Under the pieces are notes generated by a model. It had not been told where the DNA came from and ran no database searches. It saw nothing but the letters and a program-made list of their open reading frames with translations. Below are positions 15,007 through 15,180 of a stretch of 64,000 nt of DNA, in pieces. The DNA is from Pseudonocardia sp. (GTDB taxonomy: Bacteria > Actinomycetota > Actinomycetes > Mycobacteriales > Pseudonocardiaceae). Numbering within the stretch: the first letter of the stretch is position 1; the number at the start of each line of letters is the position of its first letter. The stretch is from NCBI RefSeq assembly GCF_025465255.1, contig NZ_JAODNI010000244.1, positions 1-64,000 on the forward strand, given 5' to 3'. Position numbers and translations under genes: made by a program.

Positions 15007-15105
15007 GCTGCTCTCCTGAGCGGGAGGCGGCCCGGTACGGGCCGGCCGGGATGGGATCGCTGGGCGCGAGCGGCGCGGGCGCCGGGCGGATGTTCGAGCG
15101 CGAGG

Positions 15106-15180
15106 TCAGCGGCCGGAACGACAGGACGCGCTCGTGACGCGCATGAGGTCGACGTGTCGACGGGTCACGAGACGAATCAC
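15106..15180 (-). CDS. Cys-containing leader peptide upstream of metY-metX
   Basis: A 24-codon ORF starting at GTG 15180 and ending TGA at 15106 contains TRRHVDLMRVTSASCRSGR. This matches the RRHVDLxR...CR signature of the small leader peptides found upstream of sulfur-assimilation and methionine genes in actinobacteria (annotated as Ms4527A-type or simply leader peptide). An in-frame GTG at 15168 is an alternative start and would leave VTRRHVDLM. There is no Shine-Dalgarno, so it is probably leaderless. The stop lies 99 bases before the metY ATG, leaving room for an attenuator-like structure that senses Cys or charged tRNA-Cys. The regulatory role is inference from family knowledge. Confidence 0.8.
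   Translation of the reverse strand: MIRLVTRRHVDLMRVTSASCRSGR

Follow-up and report, generated by a model that had tools for sequence, protein, structure and literature searches.

A putative cysteine-sensing leader peptide of family NF042934 upstream of metY-metX in Pseudonocardia

INTRODUCTION

Within the 64,000-nucleotide stretch of Pseudonocardia sp. DNA analyzed here (contig NZ_JAODNI010000244.1; hereafter, the window), the genes metY and metX are preceded by an open reading frame (ORF) of only 24 codons, which the initial annotation interpreted as a cysteine leader peptide. The locus thus raises the question of whether so short an ORF, holding one Cys codon, could report on cysteine supply to a pair of methionine-type genes, and by which step it might do so.

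The closest precedents come from mycobacteria. In the excerpted text of Shell et al. (2015), Cys-rich leaderless ORFs are placed before cysA2 and other genes (PMC4633059), and Canestrari et al. (2020), as cited in an excerpt of PMC9031893, found regulation by cysteine supply through leaderless ORFs of Mycobacterium smegmatis that carry runs of contiguous Cys codons. PMC13236596 and PMC9094748 likewise cite that study.

RESULTS

A leader peptide of the NF042934 family precedes metY-metX

The features of the locus on which the analysis centers are as follows.

12530 to 13699, minus strand: metX, homoserine O-acetyltransferase (NF047917, 533 bits against a cutoff of 475), whose start overlaps the metY stop
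13696 to 15006, minus strand: metY, O-acetylhomoserine/O-acetylserine sulfhydrylase, 436 amino acids (PRK07812, 823 bits against a cutoff of 703), with its ATG at 15004 to 15006
15012 to 15017, minus strand: metY Shine-Dalgarno sequence AGGAGA, read from the sequence
15007 to 15105, minus strand: leader-metY spacer, 99 nt, C-rich and G-poor, with a skew of C over G
15106 to 15180, minus strand: leader ORF, GTG start, 24 codons plus a TGA stop, MIRLVTRRHVDLMRVTSASCRSGR
15121 to 15123, minus strand: codon 20, Cys (TGT), the proposed sensor codon, four codons ahead of the stop

The leader ORF before metY is real and more than a chance reading frame. Its coordinates bear out the initial description of a 24-residue ORF that ends 99 bases from metY, lacks a Shine-Dalgarno sequence (none was seen upstream of the GTG on reading the sequence), and carries its TGT codon near the 3' end; this is the single Cys among the 24 codons, and there is no run of contiguous Cys codons. 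The RRHVDLMR...CR pattern had been taken as that of a leader-peptide family, and the ORF indeed matches NCBIfam NF042934 (“putative leader peptide”) at 31.8 bits (cutoff, 27; E value, 7.6e-8), with leader residues 3 to 20 aligned to profile positions 2 to 19 of 19 and the motif ending in Cys. The same leader scores 29.7 bits in a whole-genome profile search, also above the NF042934 cutoff, and falls below the 45-bit cutoff of the stricter mycobacterial Cys-rich models Ms4527A and Ms5788A (NF042936 and NF042933; 31.6 and 13.4 bits, respectively). The existence of an NCBI family model also tempers the earlier remark that the ORF is too short for routine gene calling: it is short, but not wholly invisible.

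The leader shares its strand with a sulfur-metabolism gene that begins 99 nt downstream (metY), a placement of the NF042934 type, where sulfur-gene placement as a family trait is our own reading of the downstream-gene surveys described below. The profile matches back the identities of metY and metX, upholding the view that the leader stands before methionine-type genes. MetY is of the bifunctional O-acetylhomoserine/O-acetylserine (OAH/OAS) sulfhydrylase type (by its PRK07812 match) and contains 0 cysteines and 3 methionines in 436 amino acids; of 56 MetY sequences compared from their aligned start onward, none has a Cys codon, and a Cys-free MetY fits an enzyme required under Cys shortage. 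A covariance-model scan of the window against Rfam returned 0 families at the gathering score, with no SAM-IV and no other riboswitch. A divergent yaaA-like gene (PF03883; 15272 to 16021, plus strand) has its upstream intergenic region in common with the leader.

The leader recurs before metY in related genera

To relate the window to other genomes, we scanned the named loci that best match its MetY, applying a motif-score rule that was devised after leaders had been seen. The leader precedes metY in 53 of these 80 loci, being present in 26/26 Pseudonocardia, 21/29 Streptomyces, 2/4 Actinokineospora, and 1/1 Umezawaea loci and absent from 9/9 Amycolatopsis, 4/4 Nitriliruptoraceae, 8/29 Streptomyces, and other loci. 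Absence of the peptide upstream of metY in relatives had been named as the outcome that would count against the leader; its recurrence in every Pseudonocardia and most Streptomyces loci leaves the claim standing. Under the same rule, 7 of 1,454 control windows score as high, and 5 of these 7 have a correctly placed terminal Cys and seem to be genuine leaders as well. At the Streptomyces loci L057, L073, L088, L075, and L087, flank controls match RRHVDLARVSSSCC, RRHIDLALVASTFC, and RRHIDLQRFTSCLC, which are probably other family members.

A larger collection of 110 metY loci yielded 61 leaders, found by translated motif, with the Asp at position -9 (counted from the sensor Cys) forming part of the search motif. 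Four loci had no start codon by our rule and hence fall outside this set, although three of them (L057, L073, and L088) do carry the leader. The metY leaders used below comprise 38 distinct Pseudonocardia-type, 18 Streptomyces-type, and 5 other sequences, and the spacer between leader and metY ranges from 31 to 276 nt among relatives. One leader of the same kind (L038) accompanies a MetY 76% identical to that of the window, on a contig labeled “Candidatus Melainabacteria” that may in fact be actinobacterial and come from a mixed bin.

A SAM-IV riboswitch (RF00634) precedes metY in 4 of 20 loci scanned. At L115, L117, L118, and L040, relatives that lack the leader, it sits directly ahead of metY, so that across relatives the gene has two unrelated controls.

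Promoter spacing points to a leaderless transcript

Upstream of the leader lie two promoter-like elements.

15187 to 15192, minus strand: -10-like TACGGT (a TANNNT box), its end 6 nt from the GTG
15211 to 15216, minus strand: -35-like TTGTGC, 18 nt above TACGGT, read by eye from the sequence

The two elements are arranged as at leaderless starts of actinobacteria, with a TANNNT-type -10 box just ahead of the start codon. Of the 38 distinct Pseudonocardia-type leaders, 37 have such a box at a gap of 6 to 7 nt, as do 5/5 of the other leaders; the background frequency is 0.04% per position. At the distance of the -35-like TTGTGC, GTTGTG is conserved in the consensus of the 38 Pseudonocardia-type leaders. 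A sigma-70 consensus scan reported no promoter at the locus, because the rule of that scan demands a closer match. Since the GTG has no Shine-Dalgarno sequence and is preceded at 6 nt by a TANNNT box, the leader transcript is probably leaderless, starting at or beside the GTG. Among Streptomyces-type leaders, 17 of 18 lack the box (the remaining one carries it with a 5-nt gap) and a different conserved sequence lies upstream, so that a leaderless start is suggested less firmly there.

The sensor Cys codon is nearly always TGT

The Cys that ends the motif is encoded by TGT in 119/119 family members and in 61/61 metY leaders, counts that are not independent, as many of the sequences are related. 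The 119 comprise 9 sequences from the window's own genome and 110 others (30 loci plus 80 regions from a class survey list); partial or weak own-genome matches were left out, among them L126 and L131 (E value, 0.26; Cys TGT by eye). The 110 all reach the last profile position and therefore have Cys there by construction, but not any particular codon. Because the metY set came from a translated motif and the family set from a protein profile run on six-frame translations, codon choice lies outside the selection of the sequences.

Further matches behave alike. After 7 repeats of known places were dropped from 40 further regions, TGT was found in 32/32 of the 33 listed matches that have a Cys at this position, 1 having none. 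Twelve weaker or other matches gave 10 TGT, 1 TGC, and 1 that stops short of the position (one of the loci, L306, repeats L278). TGC in place of the sensor TGT was seen in one member alone, L292, which is of a poly-Cys type (GGCCCLCR), and two motif-bearing places, L126 (which has a stop there) and L271, have no Cys at it.

Elsewhere in the same 119 ORFs the preference is reversed: 146 other Cys codons divide into 126 TGC versus 20 TGT. TGC also leads by 49 to 4 at position -7 and by 40 to 6 at position -2, and it makes up 83% of Cys codons in nearby genes, UGU being the rarer codon. The contrast within leaders controls for genome composition. A cause at the RNA level was sought from 15 bases ahead of the codon to 8 past its first base and rejected, since none of the other bases there is fixed; the base that follows the codon is C in 93 of 115 sequences. 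From the sensor Cys to the stop there are 0 to 4 codons in 105 of 119 leaders, and none in 3.

A proposed route from cysteine supply to metY-metX

We think it likely that metY-metX is controlled in cis by a leader ORF of the NF042934 class that responds to cysteine, probably as a ribosome-based gauge of its supply. The comparisons show the ORF, its family membership, its conservation before metY, the promoter spacing, and the constraints on codons and residues; from them we infer the leaderless start, the stalling, Cys as the signal, the direction of the response, and the output step. Transcription would start at or next to the GTG and a ribosome would translate the leader at once, its speed at the lone UGU near the end serving as a readout of charged tRNA-Cys. 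With plentiful Cys the ribosome would finish and leave; with scarce Cys it would linger at the UGU, and expression of metY-metX would rise. More MetY and MetX would then yield homocysteine from sulfide and, given an enzyme of the bifunctional OAH/OAS type, perhaps cysteine. As output, we tentatively favor, by a narrow margin, early termination by Rho within the C-rich, G-poor spacer, which the lingering ribosome would hinder, over unmasking of the metY ribosome-binding site (RBS). Because only 0 to 4 codons separate the sensor from the stop, stalled and finishing ribosomes would cover nearly the same RNA, which makes dwell time a likelier signal than position.

Several points weigh against a Cys-leader model: by classical standards, one Cys codon makes a weak sensor; modeled access to the metY Shine-Dalgarno sequence is not improved, Streptomyces leaders lack TANNNT at the expected gap, spacers vary, some metY genes have no leader, and L126 and L271 have no sensor Cys.

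The spacer favors C over G

A classical attenuator is not apparent: no intrinsic terminator was found on the minus strand between 14900 and 15400, the one present (15261 to 15276) being on the plus strand. The genome carries a rho gene, and the window spacer without its last 14 nt has a skew, (C-G)/(C+G), of 0.31, which places it in the top 0.2% of same-length windows of its locus; this spacer-skew count covers 36 of 38 leaders, two with very short spacers being left out. The 40 nt before the metY Shine-Dalgarno sequence have median skews of 0.38 and 0.40, versus 0.07 and 0.06 upstream of other genes (P values of 3e-12 and 3e-6, uncorrected for relatedness). Family-wide, the sequence after leader stops has a skew of 0.23 versus 0.05 in coding sequence (95 of 119 leaders). 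Upstream regions of metY without a leader are C-skewed as well (median 0.28, n = 26, versus about 0.4), so that the hint of Rho is only partly specific.

Translation attenuation, in which the paused ribosome would keep the RNA open and the metY RBS exposed with no termination of transcription, is a real possibility that we place a little short of an even chance. The M. smegmatis cysteine case is called translation attenuation in the excerpted text of PMC13236596, and spacers of only 31 to 38 nt in some relatives leave little room for a terminator before metY. Folding argues the other way: in an admittedly crude model, the cost of opening the metY RBS in the stalled relative to the stop state is lower in 10/38 and higher in 24/38 Pseudonocardia leaders, and lower in 5/18 and higher in 10/18 Streptomyces leaders, such that unmasking by a stalled ribosome has no consistent effect. 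No shared anti-Shine-Dalgarno sequence was seen by eye in 15 folds, folds of leader plus spacer are no better than those of shuffled sequences (z = 0.04), and no common structure was found across metY leader spacers. The initial suggestion that stalling changes either folding or Rho access hence holds in part: with a stalled ribosome modeled, folding left the metY RBS no more open, and Rho access is possible given spacers with C over G.

Residues of the nascent chain are conserved

Three residues of the leader, numbered relative to the sensor Cys, stand out.

15160 to 15162, minus strand: codon 7, Arg (position -13), Arg in 115/115 family stretches
15148 to 15150, minus strand: codon 11, Asp (position -9), Asp in 115/115 family stretches
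15139 to 15141, minus strand: codon 14, Arg (position -6), Arg in 115/115 family stretches

All three are identical across the 115 distinct stretches, although part of this invariance reflects the choice of sample by a profile that rewards conserved residues, and their synonymous codons vary (0.10 to 0.21 bits of KL divergence) much as in ordinary genes. Among metY leaders, R-13 and D-9 occur in 56/56 and R-6 in 53/56 (35/38 Pseudonocardia type, 18/18 Streptomyces type). The pN/pS ratio of leaders is 0.44 in Pseudonocardia and 0.27 in Streptomyces, compared with 0.31 and 0.10 for metY. With a ratio below 1 and invariant R-13, D-9, and R-6, the amino acids of the leader are under selection, looser than that on metY. 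Comparison of relatives for a conserved peptide with variable codons, as had been proposed, thus gave that pattern for the Arg, Asp, and Arg of the motif, not for the Cys with its fixed TGT, and less well for Ser at -3, mostly AGC (56 of 68 family-wide). That R-13, D-9, and R-6 are fixed as residues yet loose in codon, alongside a fixed TGT, suggests that both peptide and codon matter.

The same residues could form a nascent-chain-assisted sensor, R-13, D-9, and R-6 slowing the ribosome from within the exit tunnel with UGU in the A site. A single Cys codon would then suffice, much as in an arrest peptide released by Cys-tRNA, and such a sensor would be compatible with either Rho-dependent termination or translation attenuation as output. 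We regard it as possible but somewhat doubtful. The 115/115 identity with varying synonymous codons speaks for it, as does the modest supply of other Cys codons, little more than one per leader; against it, the stretches were profile selected, R-6 is missing from a few Pseudonocardia-type metY leaders, Ser at -3 is codon constrained too, poly-Cys members also exist, and the peptide could matter for something else.

A bolder version, unlikely in our estimate, would make the actinobacterial HVDL-leader family a two-key sensor in which the nascent chain (R-13, D-9, and R-6) poises the ribosome and the fixed UGU tests it. UGU would be decoded by the single GCA anticodon via G-U wobble, and isoacceptor-charging theory cannot account for a synonymous preference given a lone Cys isoacceptor. 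The ms2i6A37 modification of tRNA is sulfur dependent, and a MiaB homologue is present. If the two-key reading is true, the pause at UGU would depend on tRNA-Cys decoding, for example, through ms2i6A37, and the leader would read sulfur status together with Cys charging. The combination of a near-absolute UGU with a conserved nascent-chain motif is the part that would surprise a specialist.

RNA structure within the ORF

One further candidate element lies inside the leader.

15131 to 15171, minus strand: possible ORF-internal hairpin, unproven, with arms CTCGTGAC and GTCACGAG

That this hairpin, and not the peptide, is the working part is improbable to our minds, although it has some points in its favor. 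In 36 Pseudonocardia leaders, 87.3% of its pair cells are paired, versus 14 to 58% when the positions are slid, and codons 3 to 18 give more stable folds than their synonymous resamples do (mean z = -1.05); several codons are also constrained, with His as CAT in 24/37 (versus 11/615 in metY), Leu4 as CTC in 34/38, Val5 as GTG in 36/38, and Ser17 as AGC or AGT in 38/38. Covariation is, however, no better than in shuffled alignments (392 of 500 reach it), which led us to reject the hairpin as a conserved element; Streptomyces gives no folding signal (z = +0.56), and the Arg, Asp, and Arg codons vary family-wide. A second hairpin, around the Cys codon (GCGGCC...GGCCGC), had seemed promising on inspection but was also discarded, its stability not exceeding that of synonymous resamples (codons 17 to end, z = -0.07).

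Most improbable of all is a conserved translated ORF with no role in metY control, such as a small protein or a mere aid to initiation, to which the two motif-bearing places lacking the Cys lend something but which sits poorly with placement before sulfur-type genes, the fixed TGT, and the reported Cys responsiveness of mycobacterial relatives (PMC9031893, as excerpted).

Targets of the family in the genome and the class

Searching the window's own genome with the profile gave 21 listed matches, with ten places besides the metY leader at an E value of <0.01. Judged partly by eye, the genes downstream would encode sulfite reductase, DUF4395 plus thiosulfate sulfurtransferase, taurine dioxygenase, and flavin monooxygenases; others (a ROK-like regulator and an exported protein) bear no resemblance to sulfur genes. 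On one contig of this genome (C163), two family leaders lie about 1.4 kb apart (L003 and L006; also L127 and L128), ahead of genes that by eye resemble sulfur-scavenging monooxygenases. The motif ORF of L126 (C88:12565 to 12603; E value, 3.2e-4), RRHVDLCRTAAAL, has a TAG stop exactly at the sensor Cys position and would be a lost or different kind of leader.

Across the class, the NF042934 family occurs in 95 of 118 genomes at an E value of 0.01 or better, 78 of them over the cutoff. A second survey of 119 genomes gave 9 with a match at 0.001, of which one, from another class, is a partial match below the cutoff; outside the class the family looks scarce. The commonest Pfam families downstream are rhodanese (22), nitrite/sulfite reductase (20), and DUF4395 (19), and PAPS reductase and PLP-enzyme genes also follow family members. 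These figures derive from 108 of 110 downstream proteins (L155 and L156 were left out as near copies of L154), some on rough gene calls. MetY's own Pfam family, Cys/Met PLP, does not figure in the commonest 25 of the 33 Pfam families in this sample. Because the sampled matches score some 30 bits or higher, more than the 29.7 bits of the window's leader, the sample is biased against metY-type leaders and gives no measure of how rare metY is as a target.

DISCUSSION

The mycobacterial poly-Cys attenuators, the system of Canestrari and coworkers, reportedly resemble the window's leader in being short ORFs before sulfur genes, leaderless (as the window's leader would be too) and with Cys near the stop, and differ in having a run of Cys codons where the window's leader has one. 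Candidate leader peptides of cys operons, with Rho proposed, were put forward by Seliverstov et al. (2005), and in the excerpted text these likewise are short ORFs that carry Cys codons close to their stop, lack a terminator, and are given a possible role for Rho; they differ in having Cys runs and lying before cys and cbs operons, and no conserved RNA element is given there before methionine operons (PMC1262725). Of eight leader peptides listed for Streptomyces lividans in the excerpt of PMC8079986, one, metL, precedes the methionine importer metNIQ and none precedes metY. The metL leader is leaderless, belongs to a methionine-related operon, and holds Cys codons, as at metY, but is another peptide and was read by its authors as Met dependent (PMC8079986).

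The SAM-IV riboswitch (RF00634), found before metY in other actinobacteria, is a ligand-binding RNA, and the window has none. In the leader-peptide literature surveyed here, we saw no report of metY as a target of this leader family and none of a fixed UGU at the sensor Cys; as far as we have seen, a single-Cys, metY-directed member of this known family has not been reported before. The locus would add methionine and sulfide-assimilation genes, for which some relatives use a SAM riboswitch instead, to the targets of the actinobacterial cysteine leaders. The fixed UGU, which the encoded peptide does not explain, poses a sharp one-base question about a single Cys codon as sensor, namely, UGU versus UGC in the same peptide.

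The alphaproteobacterial cysS leader uORFC-8-2 of Rhodobacterales, for which attenuation was proposed, also places Cys codons in an upstream ORF, but these are tandem, with UGC dominant and an intrinsic terminator, in contrast to the single UGU without a terminator here (PMC8632094, as excerpted). Given the dominance of UGC in that leader, UGU is no general rule of Cys attenuators.
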